Positions 8,301 through 46,661 of a DNA stretch of 64,000 nucleotides are shown in pieces. The notes beneath the pieces were generated by a model. That model was given only the letters and a program-made list of their open reading frames with translations. It made no database searches and was not told the DNA's origin. This DNA is from Nothopassalora personata. Its lineage: Eukaryota > Ascomycota > Dothideomycetes > Mycosphaerellales > Mycosphaerellaceae. The stretch spans positions 1,116,001 through 1,180,000 of the forward strand of contig CM066289.1 of NCBI GenBank assembly GCA_033816765.1, given 5' to 3'. The translations under genes were made by a program, and so were the position numbers. Numbering within the stretch: position 1 is the stretch's first letter; every line of letters begins with the position of its first letter.

Positions 8301-8544
8301 GCAATCGAAGATGTATAATAAAAACTGTCTTAATAACGGTAGGACATAAGAAAAATAGCACCTCTACTAAAAGAGGGGGATAAGGTCTATCTCCTTATAA
8401 AAAACTTAAGAACAAGAAGATAGACTAAGAAACTAGATTACATTAAAGTCGGACCATTTTTTATCGATAAAGTTATAGGACTAGTTAACTACCGCCTACG
8501 ACTACTACTAGACGCGAAAATCTACCTAGTCTTCTATATCTCTA

Positions 8545-8622
8545 GTCGTCCTATAGAGAGCGCCTTCACGCGGCGGACGACGTAAGTATCTTCGTTACGA
8601 CGAAGAGAAACTAAGACTCTCT
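8545..8622 (+). ncRNA. HDV-like self-cleaving ribozyme at the 5' end of S1
   Basis: The fold follows the HDV double pseudoknot in order and size. P1 pairs 8545-8551 with 8575-8581 (GTCGTCC/GGACGAC, 7 bp, first base G). P3 pairs GCC 8562-8564 with GGC 8572-8574, closing a 7-base loop TTCACGC. P4 pairs 8590-8595 with 8600-8605 (CTTCGT/ACGAAG). P2 pairs 8555-8560 with 8617-8622 (AGAGAG/CTCTCT). The J4/2 strand contains CTAAG with the predicted catalytic C at 8611, the same five bases as in the HDV antigenomic ribozyme. Cleavage would fall exactly before base 8545, the element's first base as set independently by the target duplication. Activity is inferred, not shown. P1.1 would be weak (one clear G-C pair). 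Confidence 0.82.
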
Positions 8623-9328
8623 CTCTCGAAAAATACAAGCCTACTCGACTCGAAACAAGAAAAGACAGGTCGGACGAACCGAACGAACGAGATACGCTCA
8701 AAATCTACAAACAAGAACTCCGGAACTGCGAGAAGGGAAAGCGACGTACATAGCGTACACGTCGCTCGAACAACGAAGGCGCTGTCTACCTGTCGTCCCG
8801 GCAAACCACGTAAACTGCCGGCTGGAACCAAGAGAGGCGTTTAGGGGCGCAAACCACGTATACTGCACGGCTGGAACCAAGAGAGGCCGAGGGGGGGACG
8901 ACAGCGAGGCCACTGCGACCGAGGAGCTACACTCGAGACCGGAGAACGCGACTGGATTGAAACAGAGGCAACGGGTGTTTCTTGGGATTTTGCTCGGTGC
9001 GTACGGGTACGGCCGGCTTGGCTTTTTAAAACAAGAACGAGACACGGGCGCAAAACTTGTCTCGCCCGGGGCAAGGCGACAAACCGCAATTCTCGACAAG
9101 ACACGACTACCGGGTACGCGCGTACTACGCCGCAATATATTCGATTTACGGTTCGAATAGCGAGCGTTGCTCGCATCTTTTAAGGAGTTTTTACGTCCGG
9201 GGTACGACGGGGCTTTTCTCCTTCTCTCAAATCTCAAATTTTGGTCTCGTTCTCGAGACCCGTGTTGCATAGTCTTTGACTCAAATAGCACGTTAATGGA
9301 ATAATCAATCAATAATCAATCAATCAAA
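8545..9328 (+). mobile_element. S1: SINE-like retroelement with 5' HDV-like ribozyme, 784 bp
   Basis: S1 is an unmutated, GC-richer insert in the middle of element A pol. It is flanked by a perfect 13-bp direct repeat, ttctatatctcta (8532-8544 and 9329-9341). Element H at 46322-46336 shows the same place empty with one copy of the target. The 3' end is a simple-repeat tail of aatc units. A second copy, S2 (29795-30553), has a different target duplication and a shorter tail. Variable-length target repeats, a repetitive tail and no LTR or TIR fit target-primed reverse transcription by a LINE. The inside holds a 48-bp-period duplication (8801-8838 and 8849-8887). Frames are not kept between S1 and S2, so it is probably non-coding and non-autonomous. 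Confidence 0.85.
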
Positions 9329-9597
9329 TTCTATATCTCTAAGTTAGAACCCGTAGACGCCGAAACACCCTACTAGGAGAGCTTCTATTTCGAACTAGAA
9401 GTAGAAAACGAATTTAAAGTCGAAAAAATCCTAGATAAGAAAGGTTAGCAATACCTTATTAAGTAGAAAGGATACGACGAATTAGAAAATACCTAGGAAC
9501 TAAAACAAAACCTACAAAACTATTAGCAAAAGATTCGACAATACTAAAAACGGGTCCGCCGATACGACTAACGACAATCGATCTCTCGGCCGACGAG

Positions 9598-9671
9598 CGA
9601 CTAGGGTAGGAATCGAACCTACGACCTTAAGAGTGTAGACAGCTTACGCTCTACTACTAAGCTATATAACT
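9598..9671 (-). tRNA. tRNA-like unit inside element A (pseudo-tRNA)
   Basis: On the minus strand there is a perfect B-box (GGTTCGATTCC) in a 5-bp T-stem (GTAGG/CCTAC), a five-base variable loop and a D-arm preceded by TAGC. The anticodon arm is 19 rather than 17 bases long, so the anticodon cannot be assigned safely. The 5' acceptor strand is decayed here but pairs well in the sister copy at 46588-46661. It lies between pol and the antisense ORF, antisense to gag-pol. Several bases look like RIP products, for example TAG for TGG in the D-loop. It is unlikely to give a working tRNA. Confidence 0.65.
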
Positions 9672-22037: not shown

Positions 22038-22598
22038 ATGCCAAAGGTGTCATCTTCATCCAGCACCTCTCGTCGCCTCAAGTTAGCAGAAACGATCGAA
22101 AGTTTTGGAGAGATAATGGTTCGGTCTTGTTCCAACTGTCGAGCGCATTCGCGCGTGTGCAAGGTACACGTGTCGTCGGGGCGGTGCAACGAGTGTGTGC
22201 GTCGCAACGTTCGTTGTGACGTGAAGGTGTCGCGTTCCGAGTTCGATCGTCTGATCGGTGAGAAGAAGAAGTTGGAGAGGCAGATTAAGGAGGCCCGCGA
22301 GGCTCAAGAGCGTGCTCGGGAGACTCTGAACACTGCATACGCAAAGGAGGAGCGGCTTCGGAAGCAGATGGAGCTCGTGGATCAGAGAGCCGACGAGGCC
22401 ATTGCTGTGGAGTCCGCAGCCTTGTCGGAGCTGGAGCAGCAGGAGTCGCTGGACTTTCACCTGTCTCCTAACACCTGGGGGCTCATGGTCGATCAGGGAT
22501 ACGACGTGTCGTCGGATTTCTGGTTGTACGGTCCTTCTTCGCTCCGGGTTTCTTCTGGTGTCGGAGGTACTCCATCAGGAGCACCCGGCAATTCTTGA
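22038..22598 (+). CDS. Antisense Zn2Cys6-like coiled-coil protein of element G, 186 aa
   Basis: The gene lies opposite to gag-pol, starts 89 bases inside the 3' LTR border and overlaps the end of pol by 116 bases. Residues 31-60 contain C-x2-C-x6-C-x8-C-x2-C-x6-C (CSNC, then RVC, then CNEC, then RC), which fits the fungal Zn(II)2Cys6 binuclear cluster spacing. About residues 66-150 are rich in Glu, Lys, Arg and Leu without Pro (LIGEKKKLERQIKEAREAQ), a likely coiled coil. The start is Ser-rich (MPKVSSSSS). In Gal4-type proteins such a cluster binds DNA and the coil dimerises; whether this one does so is inference. Basic residues between the first Cys pairs are few. H keeps the same pattern with all six Cys mutated to Tyr, and A a divergent version, so it is probably a real accessory gene. 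A promoter near or in the LTR is assumed. Confidence 0.8.
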   Translation: MPKVSSSSSTSRRLKLAETIESFGEIMVRSCSNCRAHSRVCKVHVSSGRCNECVRRNVRCDVKVSRSEFDRLIGEKKKLERQIKEAREAQERARETLNTAYAKEERLRKQMELVDQRADEAIAVESAALSELEQQESLDFHLSPNTWGLMVDQGYDVSSDFWLYGPSSLRVSSGVGGTPSGAPGNS

Positions 22599-25500
22599 GG
22601 TTCTCTCTCGGTTCCCAGGTATTTTCTGATTCGTCGTATCCTTTCCACTTGACAAGGTATCGCTGACCTTTCTTGTTCAGGATTTTTTCGACTTCGAATT
22701 CGTTCTCTGCTTCCGGCTCGAAATGGAAGTTCTCTTGGCAAGGTGTTTCGGCGTCCGCGGGTTCCAGCCTGGAAACATGGAAGACTGGGTGGATCTTTGC
22801 GTCGGGTGGTAGGCGTAGGCGGTAGTTGACTGGTCCGACGATTCTGTCAATGAAAAATGGTCCGACCTTGACATGATCCAGCTTCTTGGTCTGTCTCCTT
22901 GTTTTCAAGTTTTTTGTGAGGAGATAGACCTTATCCCCCTCTTTAAGCAGAGGCGCCATTTTTCTGCCATCTTGTCGTTGGTGAGACAGTTTATGTTGTG
23001 CATCCGTGATCGCTTTTTGCGCTTCTTTGTGCACTTCCTTAAGAGTATCCGTCGTCACGATTGCTCTTTCGGCCTGTGGGTGGAATCCAGGTTCTCCAAA
23101 CAGGTTAGGATCCTTTCCAAAGTTCGCATAGAATGGCGTCGTAGAAGTTGTCTCTGATTTGTGGTTGTTCAGTGCAATCTGTGCCATTGGCAGCAGTGAA
23201 ACCCAATTGTCTTGTGTATGGTTGATGTAGTGCCGTAGATATTGTTCCAAGGTTTGATTTGCTCTTTCCGTTTGTCCGTCGGTCTCCGGATGGTAGGCTG
23301 TTGACAGTTTATGTTTGATGCCGATTGTTCCCATGAGTGTTTTCCAGTAATTGGAAGTGAACAGCTTGTCTCTGTCCGTGATGAAAACTTCTGGGAATCC
23401 ATGGTATCGGATCAACCTGTCCAGTATCAAGTATCCGAGCTGTTCTGCAGTGTATGTCTCTGATGCTGCGATGAAGTGTGTATACTTTGTAAGTCTGTCA
23501 ACCATGACCAGTATCATGTCGTAGGGTTGTTTGGTGACTTGATCCCGTGAGATGGGGAGTTTGGTGATGAAATCCATCGTGACTTCGTCCCATGGTTTCG
23601 TAGGAGGAGTCCTGAATTGAAGGTGACCGTATTTTGCATGTCGGGCAGCCTTGTTCTGTTGACAGTGTACACAGCGTTTGACGTAGCGTAGCACTTTTTG
23701 TCTCATCTGTGGAAATGAGAAGCTGCGTTGTATGAGGTCCACTGTTTTCGTTGTTCCAGGGTGTCCGTACAGCGGATCGTCGTGATGTTGTCGTATACAT
23801 TCTTCCTCTCGGTCCTTTGGCACTTGGTATTTCCCTTGCGATATTGGGAATTGTTCTTCTGTGTCGCGTAGTATCCGCACGATGTTGTTGAACTCTTTCG
23901 TGTTGGCACTAAGACTTCCGTCGGGGTTTGTCTTGAGTATCTTGTGTTGCACTGGTTCTTTTCCTTCCATGTAGTCGCTTCTTCGGCTCAGCGCGTCGGC
24001 GCGGCCGTTCTCTGTCCCTGGAGTATATTTGATCTCGAACTTGTACTGTCCCAGCAGCTCCGACCAGCGGGCTTGCCTTCGGGTAAGTTCCTTTGTTGTC
24101 GTAAAGTATGTGAGATTCTTGTGGTCTGATAGAATCGTTAACTTTGGTGGTCCTTCGACGTATACTCTCCAATGTTGCATGGCAGCAACTATGGCTAGAA
24201 GTTCCTTGTCATGGATGTCGTAGTTCTGTTCCGCCGTGGTCATTTTTCGGGAGTAATAGGCTACTGGGTGTCGCTTCCCATCGTGTGTCTGTGTTAGACA
24301 TGCGCCTATTGCCATATCGGACGCGTCGGTCTCGATGTGGACTTCCTTGCTACCATCGAATAGTCGAAGCGTGGGGGCTGACACGCATTGCTCCTTGAGT
24401 CGTTGGAACGCGTCAGATTGTTCCTTTCCCCATTTCCAGTTGACGTCTTTCCTCGTAAGCATCGTCATTGGTGCTGCTGTTTTCGAATAGTCCTTGATGA
24501 ATTTCCGGTTGTAGTTGGCTAGTCCAAGGAACGATTGTACGTCCTTGACTGACTTTGGTTCTGGCCATTCTCTGATCGATTGTGTCTTTGCAGGGTCGAT
24601 CGCGATCCCCGTGGTGCTGATGATGAAGCCCAAGAATTTGACTTCTTTCCTGTGGAACTCGCATTTCTCTGGTGCTGTCTTGAACCCTGCTCCGGTGAGC
24701 CGTTCAAATACGTCCTGGACTTGCTTGATGTGCTCCTGGAGGGATCCTTTGGTATAGACCAGTATGTCGTCCATATATGCGATGACGCATACGTCGAGTA
24801 GGTCTCTAAGTGTTTCGTTGACAAGGTCCTGGCAGGATGCGGGTGCGTTGGTCAATCCCATTGGCATGACCTTAAACTCGTATAGTCCGTATCGTGTTCT
24901 GAAAGCGGTTTTCCATTCTTCTCCTTCCGCCATTCGTATAGCGTAGAAGGCATCTCGTAGGTCGATCTTGGTGTACCAGTCTGATCCGGTTAATCTGTCC
25001 TGTGCTTCTTCGATGTTCGGTAGCGGATATCGGTTTTTGATCGTGATCTCGTTCAACTTCCGGTAGTCTTGTACGAGTCGTAGTTTCCCGTTTGGTTTTG
25101 GAACGAACATGCATGGAGCGCCTGCGCTTGAGGTGGACCGCTGTATCCAACCTTTCGCTAGCTTCTCCTTCAGCCATTCCCGTAAGGTCTGGAGCTCTTT
25201 TTCGGACATTTGATATAGGGGTCCCCATGGAGGCTCTTTTCCTGGCTGAATGTTTATCTTATGATCCCATGGTGCGTGTTTAGGTAAGGCGTCCCTGCCT
25301 CTTTCCTCTTCAAAGAGTCGCGACCACTTGCGATATTCTTTGGGAATATCCAACTCCGAAATGTTGGTATTCTTCGATGGTGCGTTACTTCCATCCGTTC
25401 CGGTGATGTCATGACCCAACTGCCCCAAGTCGGTGTCTATCCCAGTCGAAGGTGGTTCTTCTGTCCTTCTAGTCGGTGCAAGCTGTATCCTATTTAGCTG

Positions 25501-26055
25501 TCTTACCTCATCTACCAGCGAACGCTGCCGCTGCGTAGGTTCAATGTCGATAACGCAATCGCATTGTTCAAACCTGAGTACTCCTCTTCTCCAGTCGATT
25601 ACTGGGTTGTGCTTTCTCAACCAAGGCATCCCAAGTACGATGTCATGACTGGCCATGTCAGTAACATCCAAGGTGATTTCCTCGTGGTGCTGTTGGATTG
25701 CAAGTGGCAGCGGTATCGTCTCGCGCTCCACACTGGGTAAGGATGATCCGTCTACCGCGATCAATTCATACCCCTCTTCCTTTCTTCGGGTAGCTAATCC
25801 GTGTCGTTTGACAAATGATTCGGAGGCAAAGTTCCCGCTCGCTCCGGAATCTATCATGGCATATGTCCGTTGCCCGTTGACGATAATCTTCGTTCGAAAC
25901 ACTGTTGTTGATGCTTGAGCCTGTGTAGTGTTGCATAACTCCCTTTGGTCGCTCATTCCTGGGGAGTCGATCCTTTTCCCGATGCGTGGGTAGAACGTTG
26001 CATTTCGTGTCGCAAGGCTTCGGCTTGAACCTGTAGCGAAGCTCCTGGTCTCCAT
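22483..26055 (-). CDS. Element G pol polyprotein, 1190 aa (PR-RT-RH-IN-chromodomain)
   Basis: Domains in order: aspartic protease with IDSGASG (Asp69) at about 55-150; reverse transcriptase about 285-480 with YMDD at 427-430; RNase H about 570-690 with TDASD (Asp577), Glu618 and SDHK (Asp644); integrase zinc-binding H-H-C-C at about 757/758, 765, 795 and 798; catalytic triad Asp828 (MDFI), Asp894 (TDRD) and Glu930 (DGQTE), with the usual 35-residue gap; chromodomain about 1118-1165 (FEVEKIL, YLVKWKGY, NTWEPRENL). The chromodomain places it in the chromovirus branch and should steer insertion to modified histones. The listed ATG lies inside gag. Translation is more likely by -1 frameshift at 25974-25980, giving a gag-pol fusion. 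The ORF is complete with all catalytic residues. Confidence 0.96.
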   Translation of the reverse strand: METRSFATGSSRSLATRNATFYPRIGKRIDSPGMSDQRELCNTTQAQASTTVFRTKIIVNGQRTYAMIDSGASGNFASESFVKRHGLATRRKEEGYELIAVDGSSLPSVERETIPLPLAIQQHHEEITLDVTDMASHDIVLGMPWLRKHNPVIDWRRGVLRFEQCDCVIDIEPTQRQRSLVDEVRQLNRIQLAPTRRTEEPPSTGIDTDLGQLGHDITGTDGSNAPSKNTNISELDIPKEYRKWSRLFEEERGRDALPKHAPWDHKINIQPGKEPPWGPLYQMSEKELQTLREWLKEKLAKGWIQRSTSSAGAPCMFVPKPNGKLRLVQDYRKLNEITIKNRYPLPNIEEAQDRLTGSDWYTKIDLRDAFYAIRMAEGEEWKTAFRTRYGLYEFKVMPMGLTNAPASCQDLVNETLRDLLDVCVIAYMDDILVYTKGSLQEHIKQVQDVFERLTGAGFKTAPEKCEFHRKEVKFLGFIISTTGIAIDPAKTQSIREWPEPKSVKDVQSFLGLANYNRKFIKDYSKTAAPMTMLTRKDVNWKWGKEQSDAFQRLKEQCVSAPTLRLFDGSKEVHIETDASDMAIGACLTQTHDGKRHPVAYYSRKMTTAEQNYDIHDKELLAIVAAMQHWRVYVEGPPKLTILSDHKNLTYFTTTKELTRRQARWSELLGQYKFEIKYTPGTENGRADALSRRSDYMEGKEPVQHKILKTNPDGSLSANTKEFNNIVRILRDTEEQFPISQGKYQVPKDREEECIRQHHDDPLYGHPGTTKTVDLIQRSFSFPQMRQKVLRYVKRCVHCQQNKAARHAKYGHLQFRTPPTKPWDEVTMDFITKLPISRDQVTKQPYDMILVMVDRLTKYTHFIAASETYTAEQLGYLILDRLIRYHGFPEVFITDRDKLFTSNYWKTLMGTIGIKHKLSTAYHPETDGQTERANQTLEQYLRHYINHTQDNWVSLLPMAQIALNNHKSETTSTTPFYANFGKDPNLFGEPGFHPQAERAIVTTDTLKEVHKEAQKAITDAQHKLSHQRQDGRKMAPLLKEGDKVYLLTKNLKTRRQTKKLDHVKVGPFFIDRIVGPVNYRLRLPPDAKIHPVFHVSRLEPADAETPCQENFHFEPEAENEFEVEKILNKKGQRYLVKWKGYDESENTWEPRENLKNCRVLLMEYLRHQKKPGAKKDRTTRNPTTRRIPDRP
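25937..25980 (-). promoter_or_regulatory. Element G -1 ribosomal frameshift signal
   Basis: On the minus strand GGGAAAA (25980-25974) sits in gag frame as tcG GGA AAA, the X XXY YYZ register, with the gag stop 18 bases downstream. After a 6-base spacer comes a stem ACTCCC / GGGAGT (25967-25962 with 25943-25938). Pol is in -1 relative to gag. A and H keep the heptamer and stem. Confidence 0.8.
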
Positions 26056-28247
26056 GCTTCTCTGTTGTTGCGTTCCTGGATCTTCTGCGTTTCTGAGTAG
26101 AGTGCTTTCACGTGCTGAACTGACTTCCTGAGTTCATTCGTGATCGTTATTCCTGACGGCGTGATGTATCCAAATGCGGTCATCTTGCTTCCAATGGGTG
26201 GTCGCTCCTGTACGATCTTGGCGCTATCGTTGTCGTGTTCCACGATGGGGTGTCTCCAGACCATCCCTCGCATCGTGTCGAGCATTAGATCGAACTGTTC
26301 TGGGTGCAGGTAGCGTCGTCGCTGTATCTTTGGGAAGACTTCTTCGCTTCTCCGAATTACATGTACGAGTAATTCGAAGATCATTTTTGGTGCGTCCATA
26401 GTAAACGTTTGGACTTCGTTGTCGTCGTCGGTGTCGCTCTCTTCTCCTTCGGAGGAATCTTCGTCGCTTGATTCTTCCGGATCCTGTTCTTCTTGGATGT
26501 TGTCCAGCCCGGTGGTTTCTTGACTTTCTTCCTGTGGTTCGGGTGACCACGATCCGTTCCATCCTGGGTCCTGGTTTTCCTTGTCCTCGTCGTCGAAGCA
26601 GGATTCGTCGACGTCCACTTCCTGGAGCTTGGCATCCTGCCTGTGTTGCGCTCCCAGGGTTCCTCGCGGCTGCTGAGGCCAATACCCTGCTCCTAACTTG
26701 GCGGAGTAGTGAACCTGACACGAGTCTTGGTAACAGAATCGCCAATGAAGGCTTCCGTGACCATTTCGAGATTCGGATTCGATCTCGTAGTCGACTCTTC
26801 TTGTCATCATTCCAAATTCCCTTGTTCGGTCCAGTCGTAGGACTTCTTGGCGGGCTCCTTCATAGAACGTCAGGAGTTCGCGTCGTTGACTTCTGTAGGG
26901 TTCTTCCGTTACGTTGGGGAAGTCCTCTATGACCTGTAGGATCTTATGTGTAATGTCGAGCCACGCTTGTCGTTGTCGCGCGTGTTCTGGGAATCGTTCC
27001 CTCACTACTGTAGTGAGTTGTTCCCAGGTTCCTTGCGCATCCGGGTGGTCTGGAAAGATCATTCGTATAGGTCCTCGTGGGGAATTGGTGTGACCTCGTG
27101 TCATCATGTTGAACTGTTGTGGTTGGTTTCGCAATTCAGATGAAATGACCGTCATCTGTTGCCCATGGTATCCTCCTCGTCCCTGTGAGGGGTCCAGGAG
27201 AGGCTCTGTGCTTCCTTCGCTAGCTCTCTCCTCCACTCCTTGAGTATAGTCGGTGTCTTCTGGAGACCCGACACTGCTCTCAAGTTTACTAGTTCGTCGT
27301 TGCATCGTGTTGAACTGTTCGCGGCGCACCATATTCTTACCGCGACAGTCCCTTGCTAGGTGGCCAGGTTTGCCACATCCATAGCAGGTTCGTGTTTCCT
27401 TTCCTGAGCTCGGGGGTCTTCTGTTCCCCTTGCTGTTCCTGATCTTGCGACCCCTTTCGGTGACGTCGAGCTCCATTGGCTGTGGTCCGTAGTATGGCTT
27501 GTTTCTGGGCTTACTGTAGTTGTCGCTAAAGCCCTTGTTACGATTGTCGTAGCCTGGGGTAAATCCGGCTCTTCCGGATACTTTGGAGTCGTATCGTCGC
27601 TCTAGAGCTCTCTCGTAGAGTCTGTCGTCAAGATCGATCGTGACCTTGACCAGAGATCCCAGGTCATCGATCCTTCGACCGTCCCTCATTAACTCATCCT
27701 TGACATGCTCCTTCAATCCTCTCCGGTACATGACTTGAAGTGCTTCGTCGTCCCAATCAGTAAGCTGGGCGTACTCCTGGAATTTGGCAGCGTAGTCGGC
27801 AGTGGATGTCTTCTGGGTCAGATGTTGGATGACGCGTACAGCAGTAGCAACCTCGTTCGAGATGCCAAAGACGCTCTTCATCGCGCTCTTGAGATGACCG
27901 TAAGACGTAAAGATCCCGTTAGCGTTGTCGTTGCCGTTGCTGTCCAGGTAGGTCCTAAGGAAGGGTTTGACCCAATGCTGTGCTCGTCCTCTCAGGAAGG
28001 TAGTGGCAAAAACAGGCTTGAGGTTCTCAGCCATGGAGTTGAACAAGAAGTACATATCCATCTGAGCAACCCAAGTGTCGAACTTGTCTCGATCGCCATA
28101 GTAGAATTCTGGCTTGCCAACCTTGAGGGTGTCGTTGCCTGTATGAGTAGCCAAGGCATTGATAGCATCGTTTGCGGTCTGAGGTCGTCGGGCTCTGCCT
28201 GCTTCACTGGGGGCGGGTGTTCCCCGTTCACTCTGTCGGTCTCCCAT
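25953..28247 (-). CDS. Element G gag polyprotein, 764 aa
   Basis: The ORF starts at ATG 28247, 20 bases after the 5' LTR. Residues about 35-230 form the retrotransposon gag (capsid) region, with GDRDKFDTWV and FLRGRAQHWV typical of the family. A single zinc knuckle C288-YG-C291-GKPG-H296-LARD-C301 binds RNA. What is unusual is the long C-terminal extension of about 460 residues. It contains three similar short motifs (FNTMQRR, FNMMTRG, FGMMTRR), an acidic, Ser/Asp/Glu-rich region (around ESSDEDSSEGEESDTDDD), and a final basic/Gln-rich part. A and H share the extension. It overlaps pol by 103 bases. Structural role in virus-like particles is known for the family; the role of the extension is unknown. 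Confidence 0.95.
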   Translation of the reverse strand: MGDRQSERGTPAPSEAGRARRPQTANDAINALATHTGNDTLKVGKPEFYYGDRDKFDTWVAQMDMYFLFNSMAENLKPVFATTFLRGRAQHWVKPFLRTYLDSNGNDNANGIFTSYGHLKSAMKSVFGISNEVATAVRVIQHLTQKTSTADYAAKFQEYAQLTDWDDEALQVMYRRGLKEHVKDELMRDGRRIDDLGSLVKVTIDLDDRLYERALERRYDSKVSGRAGFTPGYDNRNKGFSDNYSKPRNKPYYGPQPMELDVTERGRKIRNSKGNRRPPSSGKETRTCYGCGKPGHLARDCRGKNMVRREQFNTMQRRTSKLESSVGSPEDTDYTQGVEERASEGSTEPLLDPSQGRGGYHGQQMTVISSELRNQPQQFNMMTRGHTNSPRGPIRMIFPDHPDAQGTWEQLTTVVRERFPEHARQRQAWLDITHKILQVIEDFPNVTEEPYRSQRRELLTFYEGARQEVLRLDRTREFGMMTRRVDYEIESESRNGHGSLHWRFCYQDSCQVHYSAKLGAGYWPQQPRGTLGAQHRQDAKLQEVDVDESCFDDEDKENQDPGWNGSWSPEPQEESQETTGLDNIQEEQDPEESSDEDSSEGEESDTDDDNEVQTFTMDAPKMIFELLVHVIRRSEEVFPKIQRRRYLHPEQFDLMLDTMRGMVWRHPIVEHDNDSAKIVQERPPIGSKMTAFGYITPSGITITNELRKSVQHVKALYSETQKIQERNNREAWRPGASLQVQAEALRHEMQRSTHASGKGSTPQE

Positions 28248-28254
28248 CGTAGAG

Positions 28255-28266
28255 GGCGTTCAAAGC
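28255..28266 (-). promoter_or_regulatory. Element G self-priming primer-binding site
   Basis: On the minus strand the LTR end is followed by gct then TTGAACGCC (28263-28255), an exact 9-base complement of GGCGTTCAA at 28465-28457 in the LTR. A TATA-like tttgtattta lies about 35-40 bases upstream of that arm, so the arm could be near the transcript 5' end, as in Tf1. Confidence 0.6.
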
Positions 28267-28790: not shown

Positions 28791-29794
28791 ATGAGACTAG
28801 CATAGGAGTACTAGAGCATAAATAAAACTTTTCTTAACTATAAACAAAACAAAAGCTAAAGAGTAGCGCGCCTACTAGGGGCTACGTAGAGTAGTAGTAG
28901 GCGAGGAGCCCGCGAGTAGCGTGTAAGGCGAGCGCCTCAGTTGTCGTTACGTAGTAACTTAGGTAGAAACGCCTAGTCGGCGGCGGTAGTGTTAATGTTC
29001 TACGCCTATAGGAACTAGGACTACGGTTAGTAGGGTACACGTATACGAGGAATATACGACTTACGGCGCGGCCGAGTTTAAATAGCCTATTAAGGGCGCG
29101 GTTCTACTCCTACTAGAGCGCGAGGGCTTCGGCGGCGGGGGCGGCGGCAGTAGTAGCGGCGGTAGAAGCACGTATACGGGTTTCCCCGGTACTCTTATGC
29201 TTGTAGGTATTGAATTACCTAATAGCCTATAGAAAGGGTTAGCCGAAGCATAGGAGACGCACTAGAGCCCCCGTACGCGAGTAGTAGTCGACTCGTAGGA
29301 GCGAAGTAGCGACTTACCTCCGTAATGTCGTTACCTAGCTAGGCATATAGGCGGATCTACTCTACTAGCTCCTACTACTAGAGGTCTATAGGCGCCTAGC
29401 CTATTATAGCCGTAAGGAAGTTGCGCTAGGAGCGCGCGGCGCGTAGGCGACTTACTAGCAAGGCGATAGCGTAGCTAGTATTAGGCACGTAGCTATATCT
29501 ATTACGCCTATAGCGGCTACACTTCCTTAGGAGCTCGCCGGTAGTAATACTATTACAGTTATCGGCCTCGTCTAGTAAGTAGTTAGTATACGAATCGTAG
29601 GCGGCGCGCGTAGAGACTTACCCCTAACAAAGTATAGGAGGTACCGTATATATATATTAATCCGCTACGAGAGCTTAGTAGCGGGCGAGGGCGTTAGTAG
29701 CTACGAGGGTAATGCTAGTCGCTTGCGACCACTAGGCGTTCTAGGTGCGTTACGTACTAGAGCCGCCTAGCGGCGCTTATCTTCTAAGGGGCTA

Positions 29795-29872
29795 GTCGTC
29801 CTATAGAGAGCGCCTTCACGCGGCGGACGACGTAAGTATCTTCGTTACGACGAAGAGAAACTAAGACTCTCT
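29795..29872 (+). ncRNA. HDV-like ribozyme at the 5' end of S2
   Basis: The 78 bases are identical to those of S1, with the predicted catalytic C at 29861 in CTAAG. The first base of P1 is again the first base after the target duplication. See 8545 for the fold. Confidence 0.8.
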
Positions 29873-30553
29873 CTCTCGAAAATACAAGCCTACTCGACTC
29901 GAAACAAGAAAAGACAGGTCGGACGAACCGAACGAACGAGATACGCTCAAAATCTACAAACAAGAACTCCGGAACTGCGAGAAGGGAAAGCGACGTACAT
30001 AGCGTACACGTCGCTCGAACAACGAAGGCGCTGTCTACCTGTCGTCCCGGCAAACCACGTAAACTGCCGGCTGGAACCAAGAGAGGCGTTTAGGGGCGCA
30101 AACCACGTATACTGCACGGCTGGAACCAAGAGAGGCCGAGGGGGGGACGACAGCGAGGCCACTGCGACCGAGGAGCTACACTCGAGACCGGAGAACGCGA
30201 CTGGATTGAAACAGAGGCAACGGGTGTTTCTTGGGATTTTGCTCGGTGCGTACGGGTACGGCCGGCTTGGCTTTTAAAACAAGAACGAGACACGGGCGCA
30301 AAACTTGTCTCGCCCGGGGCAAGGCGACAAACCGCAATTCTCGACAAGACACGACTACCGGGTACGCGCGTACTACGCCGCAATATATTCGATTTACGGT
30401 TCGAATAGCGAGCGTTGCTCGCATCTTTTAAGGAGTTTTTACGTCCGGGGTACGACGGGGCTTTTCTCCTTCTCTCAAATTTTGGTCTCGTTCTCGAGAC
30501 CCGTGTTGCATAGTCTTTGACTCAAATAGCACGTTAATGGAATAATCAATCAA
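29795..30553 (+). mobile_element. S2: second SINE-like element, 759 bp
   Basis: S2 is almost identical to S1 with small indels (for example aaaa for aaaaa near the 5' end and a missing tctcaaa near the 3' end). The target duplication is tctaaggggcta (29783-29794 and 30554-30565), and element D shows the site empty near 48095-48110. The tail is shorter than in S1 (aataatcaatcaa). The indels shift any reading frame, so it is non-coding. It lies in element C, and there is no RIP in it. Confidence 0.85.
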
Positions 30554-30934
30554 TCTAAGGGGCTAGTAGTGCTGTCGCTACTAGTACTACTAGAGGAGGC
30601 GGAGCGGCTAGAGAATGGCGGCGAGGAGGGCCCGTCCGACATGATAATGATAATAATAATGCTAGCGAGGCGCTTACGGTACGGGTACGGTGCGGGTACG
30701 TAGTAGTAGTGTAACGAAGGTAGTACGCTAGGGAACGTACTAGGAGAAAAGGGCTAGGTTAGGCTAGAGTTTTATACCCCTAACTAGCTACGTTAGTATA
30801 GTAACTAAGCCTTACTTACCTATACCTACATAACGACACGTACGTAACCCGTATATAGGCCGCATAGCAACTATAATTCTAGAAGTACGTAGGAACCTCT
30901 ACGTAGCAACTAGCGAGCTAAGGACAGCTCGTAC

Positions 30935-46587: not shown

Positions 46588-46661
46588 CGACTAGGGTAGG
46601 AATCGAACCTACGACCTTAAGAGTATAGATAGCTTACGCTCTACTACTGAGCTACCTAGCC
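46588..46661 (-). tRNA. tRNA-like unit inside element H (pseudo-tRNA)
   Basis: On the minus strand the acceptor stem GGCTAGG pairs with CCTAGTC over 7 bp (one G-T). The D-stem GCTC/GAGC, T-arm GTAGG-TTCGATT-CCTAC and B-box GGTTCGATTCC are intact. The discriminator base is G. The anticodon arm is 19 bases, two too many, and RIP has changed the D-loop (TAG for TGG). It is 74 bases long in the same place as in A and not present in G. It is best described as a tRNA-derived unit; anticodon uncertain. Confidence 0.7.

Follow-up and report, generated by a model that had tools for sequence, protein, structure and literature searches.

A predicted self-cleaving ribozyme of the hepatitis delta virus type at the 5′ end of a young, abundant short retroposon in the fungus Nothopassalora personata

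How does a short retroposon without a convincing promoter of its own obtain an RNA that begins at its first base? This question is raised by a 64,000-nucleotide stretch of the Nothopassalora personata genome (assembly GCA_033816765.1, contig CM066289.1, positions 1,116,001 to 1,180,000), hereafter called the window, which corresponds to C3:1116001-1180000 in the 54.5 Mb and 40 contigs searched here. The window carries two copies of an element that resembles a short interspersed nuclear element (SINE), is about 760-785 bp long and ends in an AATC repeat tail in both copies.

8545..9328, plus strand: SINE-like element copy 1, 784 bp between target duplications 8532-8544 and 9329-9341
29795..30553, plus strand: SINE-like element copy 2, 759 bp between target duplications 29783-29794 and 30554-30565
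9303..9328, plus strand: AATC-type repeat tail of copy 1 (read directly in the sequence and by copy comparison)

Our analysis indicates that this element very probably begins with, and has its 5′ end set by, a ribozyme of the hepatitis delta virus (HDV) type. As a whole, the element would consist of this ribozyme, which occupies its first 78-88 bases, followed by a variable body and then a 3′ end of the type carried by a long interspersed nuclear element (LINE), named LINE A here. We consider it likely that it is a young, abundant, non-autonomous retroposon that is freed by cleavage of its ribozyme head and mobilized by LINE A. The parts of the predicted ribozyme are as follows.

8545..8622, plus strand: HDV-type ribozyme of copy 1 (descriptor, model and pairing analysis; the model extends to 8625)
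29795..29872, plus strand: HDV-type ribozyme of copy 2 (descriptor and model)
8545..8551, plus strand: 5′ strand of P1, 7 bp, with predicted cleavage immediately before 8545
8555..8560, plus strand: 5′ strand of P2, a 6-bp pseudoknot with 8617-8622
8561, plus strand: additional C separating P2 from P3, also present in fungal HDV variants (PMC5640933)
8562..8574, plus strand: P3 (8562-8564/8572-8574, 3 bp) and L3 (8565-8571, 7 nt, TTCACGC)
8575..8581, plus strand: 3′ strand of P1, pairing with 8545-8551
8585..8588, plus strand: AGTA, presumed 5′ strand of a loop E below P4 (alignment)
8589..8606, plus strand: P4 hairpin, 7 bp (8589-8595/8600-8606), loop TACG
8607..8609, plus strand: GAA, presumed 3′ strand of that loop E (alignment)
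8611, plus strand: predicted catalytic C, within CTAAG (J4/2)
8617..8622, plus strand: 3′ strand of P2, pairing with 8555-8560

The order and size expected of an HDV fold are both present in this nested double pseudoknot (P1-P2-P3-P1′-P4-P2′), and the model detects a single significant HDV-type ribozyme in each window copy, at its 5′ end. The initial annotation of the locus had described the same architecture, and its P1 (7 bp), P3 (3 bp), P2 (6 bp), 7-base L3 and C8611 within CTAAG all stand, but P4 comprises 7 bp and not 6. Conservation was followed in an alignment of 36 rows (A1) and in a 29-row version (A2) from which seven degraded rows of A1 were removed; of the 36 young copies in loci, the window's own alone is included in either. 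Among the 29 rows, the predicted catalytic C is kept in 27 (L067 and L062 are without it), whereas the extra C at 8561, T at the first place of L3 (T8565) and G at its sixth (G8570) are each present in at least 90%. Placed by eye, T8565 and G8570 presumably occupy the position of the HDV L3 U.G pair, and C8567 can, again by eye, pair with G8582, which we take as a possible P1.1. We also take the AGTA and GAA flanks of P4 to be a loop E signature; within it, A41, T43, A44, A64 and A66 are invariant in the 29 rows and G42 is present in 25. The U.G pair of HDV L3 and a catalytic C in R2 ribozymes have been described (PMC3386971 and PMC3774820, respectively), and 26 fungal species are reported to carry HDV variants in which a loop E is present and P3 is preceded by an extra C; for two of these variants cleavage was demonstrated, the cut falling at the base of P1 (PMC5640933).

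The ends of the element coincide with this structure. A perfect target duplication of 13 bp ends directly before 8545 and one of 12 bp directly before 29795, so that the 5′ G of P1 is the first base after the duplication at both sites, as had been claimed from the sequence alone; the match of copy 2 continues for two bases (GT) that are also present in the element, which leaves this edge certain within 2 bases. Genome-wide, the ribozyme core (GCGCCTTCACGCGGCGGACGACGTAAGTA) has 277 exact matches and a 32-base word from the 3′ end has 301, with no match to the reversed control of either. For the first 100 of these 3′ words as listed, the core lies 706-721 bp upstream on the same strand in 89 cases, and the other 11 belong to truncated, changed or interrupted elements. 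A set of 37 young copies with differing upstream flanks was assembled (the two window copies, eight loci picked by their 5′ end and the rest by their 3′ end), in which 28 copies show zero mismatches to the majority sequence across 769 columns, indels aside. The base preceding the ribozyme is A in 19, T in nine, C in five and G in four of the 37. Near-identical copies with such varied upstream flanks and bases therefore represent recent insertions at unrelated sites. A perfect target duplication of 12-15 bp ends at base -1, abutting base 1 of the ribozyme, in 28 of the 37; it ends 1-2 bases earlier in two, and the remaining seven have no match or a short one. Target duplications and a 3′ repeat tail, as expected of a target-primed retroposon, are thus both present. 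The element is assumed to be non-coding; stop-to-stop frames inside it span 8615-9160 on the plus strand (181 aa) and 8698-9315 on the minus strand (205 aa). One exact pattern, used in a search for relatives elsewhere, gave 0 matches in viral and bacterial/archaeal contigs, which include few or no fungi.

Older subfamilies preserve the ribozyme together with the junction before it. A search with a diverged copy as the query returned 343 candidates; scores were computed for the best 40, and 30 loci (L039-L068) were fetched. The ribozyme block (about positions 1-88 of the element, up to 134 in a few) matches in all 30 of these loci and part of a 3′ block (about 489-794) in 22, the other eight having the ribozyme alone; the body between the two blocks has no match in the diverged loci at the BLAST settings used. 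All seven older copies examined bear the marks of repeat-induced point mutation (RIP), and AATC tails read AATT in older copies; most of the window is likewise short of CA and TG, as RIP predicts. Of 34 diverged copies tested, 17 have a second version of the 13 bases that precede base 1, matching in at least 11 positions and lying 742-945 bases downstream; of 340 control words, 10 did so. Two young rows and one copy close to the end of its locus were omitted from this test, and a few of the copies share flanks and are not independent. Because target duplications still abut base 1 in these old copies, the junction has been kept at the predicted cleavage site despite differences in P1, J1/2 and P4.

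The pairing itself has changed in a concerted manner. Aligning more copies and looking for paired changes had been proposed as a check of the fold: across the 36 rows, 13 of the 23 pairs show changes on both sides, compared with 8.5 in shuffles (standard deviation 1.1; 0 of 500 as high) and 2 to 8 when the structures were slid along the alignment. The 29-row alignment gave 11 such pairs against 6.8 shuffled (1 of 500 as high), although related rows inflate tests of this kind. Over the 36 rows, 87.4% of the cells are paired, versus 39-61% after sliding. Cleaner pairing evidence is provided by changes in P4 that lie beyond the reach of RIP. A swap from T-A to A-T occurs in two of the 36 rows, with the stem whole in L084 and partly broken in L047, and P4 is reduced to 4 bp in two copies and extended to 11 bp in one. 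Subfamily comparison and two-sided changes accordingly support the proposed HDV-like ribozyme at the 5′ end of the element, as does the finding that the target duplication ends at base 1 in young copies and in old ones; cleavage would take place at this point.

How often such an architecture arises by chance was assessed with a descriptor built from general features of HDV ribozymes, with limits that were set after the element had been seen. On both strands of the 64-kb window it matched at 8545 and 29795 only; on 3561 dinucleotide-shuffled windows it matched 54 times (0.015 per window), and on the plus strand of 2000 shuffled elements it matched once. A looser first descriptor had matched eight places in the window, both copies included, which is too many to carry weight alone. 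Plain folding of the sequence was no better than that of shuffles (z 0.11), a result that is uninformative because such folding cannot form the pseudoknot.

The 3′ end of the element points to its likely partner.

9258..9313, plus strand: segment common to the element and the 3′ end of LINE A, 56 bp, 94.6% identity to L087:6454-6509

The BLAST match between the element and the L087 locus is confined to these 56 bp (E 3.5e-16 against that locus alone). LINE A occupies about L087:1168-6510 and contains one open frame of 431 codons and one of 1110 codons, the longer encoding endonuclease and reverse transcriptase domains; the closest relative of its protein is 82% identical, and the closest ones assigned to an organism, in Sclerotinia, are about 47% identical. 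The 3′ untranslated region (UTR) lies 3028-3029 bases past the start of the endonuclease domain in six of 11 LINE A copies and farther off, as if interrupted, in three. A 3′ end common to the element and a LINE, as expected of a SINE, is thus present, and LINE A is the likely driver of the element. The 5′ end of LINE A differs from that of the element; nine of 23 matches begin within three bases of one point, and neither the model nor a relaxed descriptor, which does detect the ribozyme of the window, found a ribozyme there. Since the 3′ end is common and the 5′ end is not, the element looks chimeric, with a 3′ end that recruits LINE A. Four further places (C5:4958736, C6:1766650, C9:23657 and C9:1087174) match the LINE A 3′ UTR query over its final 180-215 bases alone, at 99-100% identity; these copies may be truncated LINEs or another short element with the same 3′ end. 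A second LINE with long open frames and AATC repeats at its end, LINE B (L089, minus strand), was considered as a partner, and LINE A was preferred: a genome search for LINE B yielded only the query and seven partial hits, no ribozyme was detected in LINE B by the model, and BLAST found no common 3′ end in the loci compared.

These observations fit a simple cycle. Host transcripts would run through an inserted copy of the element, and the ribozyme would fold and cut just before base 1, yielding an RNA that begins at the first base of the element. The LINE A protein would then recognize the common 3′ end and AATC tail of this RNA and copy it into a nick elsewhere by target-primed reverse transcription. 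The direct basis for this view comprises the structure as predicted and as conserved through two-sided changes, the 5′ junctions of young and old copies, the common 3′ end and the open frame of LINE A; from these we infer cleavage, read-through and mobilization. A further property of the young family is that 8775-8788 (element positions 231-244) is, in 13 of its 14 bases, complementary to 8554-8567, which covers the 5′ strands of P2 and P3 and the start of L3. The maximum in shuffles (20 per row, 38 rows) was 11, and older subfamilies reach 8 to 11; this anti-ribozyme segment is strong in the young family, and the older ones are within or near the shuffled range. It could turn the ribozyme off after transcription.

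Several results weigh against the ribozyme-headed, LINE A-driven element proposed here. Further pair types in the 36-row alignment are not above chance (27 versus 25.2; 59 of 500 shuffles as high), nor are those of the 29-row alignment (93 of 500 as high), and paired cells amount to 84.0% in P1 and 78.9% in lower P4, with many decayed copies broken. The initial annotation had held that copies with uncompensated breaks in P1 or P3 and an unchanged 5′ end would speak against the fold, and this situation does occur in part (16% of P1 cells in the 36 rows), in RIP-mutated copies in which breaks are expected after insertion. The broken pairs weaken the covariation argument, and RIP decay can explain them; part of the two-sided changes may be mutational, because RIP turns G-C into A-T on both strands. 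The presumed loop-E G differs in four of the 29 rows. A search with the Rfam HDV models, also proposed at the outset, returned no ribozyme in the window at gathering scores. On 8500-8680, the HDV family RF02682 aligns to 8545-8607 at 19.9 bits (E 0.081), below its cut-off of 44, and a CRISPR-repeat family scores 21.9 bits (E 0.083) on the same stretch; RF02682 scores 9.8 bits in L039 and 14.7 in L055 and has no match in L084, and unrelated families equal or exceed it in three of these four stretches. Rfam thus supports the fold weakly, too weakly to decide, and its gathering score is a database criterion and not part of the HDV fold. Two features of the fungal HDV variants are reported to violate the criteria formerly used to find HDV ribozymes (PMC5640933), and a low Rfam score may be expected if the present ribozyme is close to that class. 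Its first pair is G8545-C8581, whereas the fungal variants typically have C-G (PMC5640933); we therefore call it a close relative, and not a member, of a class with which it was compared by description. On the side of LINE A, two of 11 copies have no 3′ UTR among the 40 matches scored out of 413 candidates, and the L087 locus showed no clear target duplication.

Could the 88 bases at the 5′ end have been kept for another role, such as binding of the LINE protein or an internal promoter, with the 5′ end set by the start of transcription? Taken alone, the conservation and the exact 5′ end would be compatible with this idea, and the 77-nt counterpart in trypanosomatids is reported to act also as a promoter (PMC4035085). 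The helix order of HDV, the T and G of L3, C8611 and the loop-E-like flanks are, however, those of a class with two fungal members shown to cleave (PMC5640933), and P4 lengthens, shortens and swaps with pairing kept (partly broken in the L047 swap), which makes such a role quite improbable in our view. A classical SINE with an RNA polymerase III (Pol III) promoter, whose ribozyme-like fold would be a by-product, is highly improbable. SINEs whose heads are related to tRNA or 5S have been described in fungi (PMC5063351), and the element does contain a B-box-like word (9 of 11) at 9150, 605 bases into the element, and an A-box-like word (10 of 12) at 8884, two further points that count against our view. 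These words lie 266 bases apart, however, and the element has six runs of 4-5 T that would stop Pol III, four of them (9178, 9188, 9214 and 9239) situated past the B-like word and before the 3′ end; Rfam gave no tRNA, 5S or 7SL match inside the element at gathering scores. Because no convincing Pol III promoter was found, we call the element SINE-like and not a classical SINE, and read-through transcription followed by self-cleavage would be the simplest source of an RNA starting at base 1.

The origin of the element is a separate matter, on which an alternative compatible with the cleavage mechanism is possible, if on balance unlikely: the element could be an internally deleted LINE whose ribozyme derives from the 5′ end of an extinct or unseen autonomous LINE. 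Such elements exist in Drosophila R2 (PMC3414825) and in trypanosomatids (PMC4035085), and a ribozyme-bearing LINE could have been missed when the best 40 of the 343 candidates were scored. LINE A, on the other hand, which has the common 3′ end, has a different 5′ end without a detected ribozyme, and its match to the element is limited to the 56 bp given above. A short internally deleted element (SIDE) takes both ends from one LINE, and LINE A accounts for the 3′ end but not the 5′ end. A chimeric element with a probable ribozyme head and a LINE A-type 3′ end remains the reading we prefer.

Other features of the window lie outside the element. A Ty3-type element on the minus strand (22486-28259) has open gag and pol frames and a normal CA/TG content within RIP-depleted DNA, and its pol is 90% identical to the reverse transcriptase of Cladosporium fulvum T-1 over 82% of its length. 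Two tRNA matches on the minus strand (9606-9664 and 46588-46661) are alike over their common part, and one of them is partial and lies about 280 bases beyond the element.

The fungal HDV variants have been reported with "widely variable gene associations" (PMC5640933), and the main text of that report contains no word beginning with retrotransposon, SINE, transpos or repeat. We consider it quite possible, though short of probable, that these variants are mainly the 5′ ends of widespread ribozyme-headed retroposons, in which a Pol III promoter has been replaced by self-excision from host transcripts and the 3′ end of an active LINE is borrowed. If so, the ribozyme module would outlast one body and one partner LINE after another, as the two blocks matched in the diverged loci also suggest. 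The present element itself suggests a biological setting and role for a ribozyme class reported without one. It may also serve to examine, in a natural setting, how a retroposon that is dispersed and non-autonomous manages without its own promoter, and its 277 exact cores, young copies at unrelated sites and RIP-marked subfamilies constitute a data set for ribozyme evolution and the origins of SINE-like elements. The initial annotation had ventured that ribozyme use in a short fungal element may be undescribed. No link of an HDV-type ribozyme to a fungal SINE or retrotransposon was found by title and start of abstract among the papers listed from the open PMC literature, outside of which subscription papers and preprints lie, but the fungal variants themselves are known and two of them cleave (PMC5640933).

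Compared with known systems, the present ribozyme resembles the fungal variants in its fungal host, its HDV architecture, a loop E that replaces part of P4 and an extra nucleotide that is mostly C (PMC5640933). The combination of a 5′ HDV-like ribozyme with a LINE 3′ end recalls the R2 and R2/R1 hybrid SIDEs of Drosophila, and in the hybrid the ribozyme and the 3′ end differ in origin, the latter coming, with the machinery, from another LINE (PMC3414825). Those SIDEs are animal elements confined to 28S ribosomal DNA, freed from the 28S transcript by an R2-derived ribozyme (PMC3414825), whereas the element described here is fungal, is dispersed at unrelated sites and has a predicted ribozyme for which no LINE source is known. 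The trypanosomatid elements NARTc, RIME and SIDER are similarly short and non-autonomous with a 5′ HDV-like ribozyme (PMC4035085); here, in contrast, the 5′ end is not common to LINE A. The SINEs of Aspergillus fumigatus are also short, non-autonomous and fungal, and duplications are reported for the tRNA-related ones (PMC5063351), but they are tRNA- and 5S-related, and no such match was found in our element. Retrozymes are likewise non-autonomous retroelements with small self-cleaving ribozymes, although theirs are hammerheads and their RNA is circular (PMC7761336), while each window copy here has one predicted HDV-type ribozyme, at its 5′ end. HDV-like ribozymes at the head of LINEs and their short derivatives, and HDV variants in fungi, were thus already known; what is new is the link to a retroposon.
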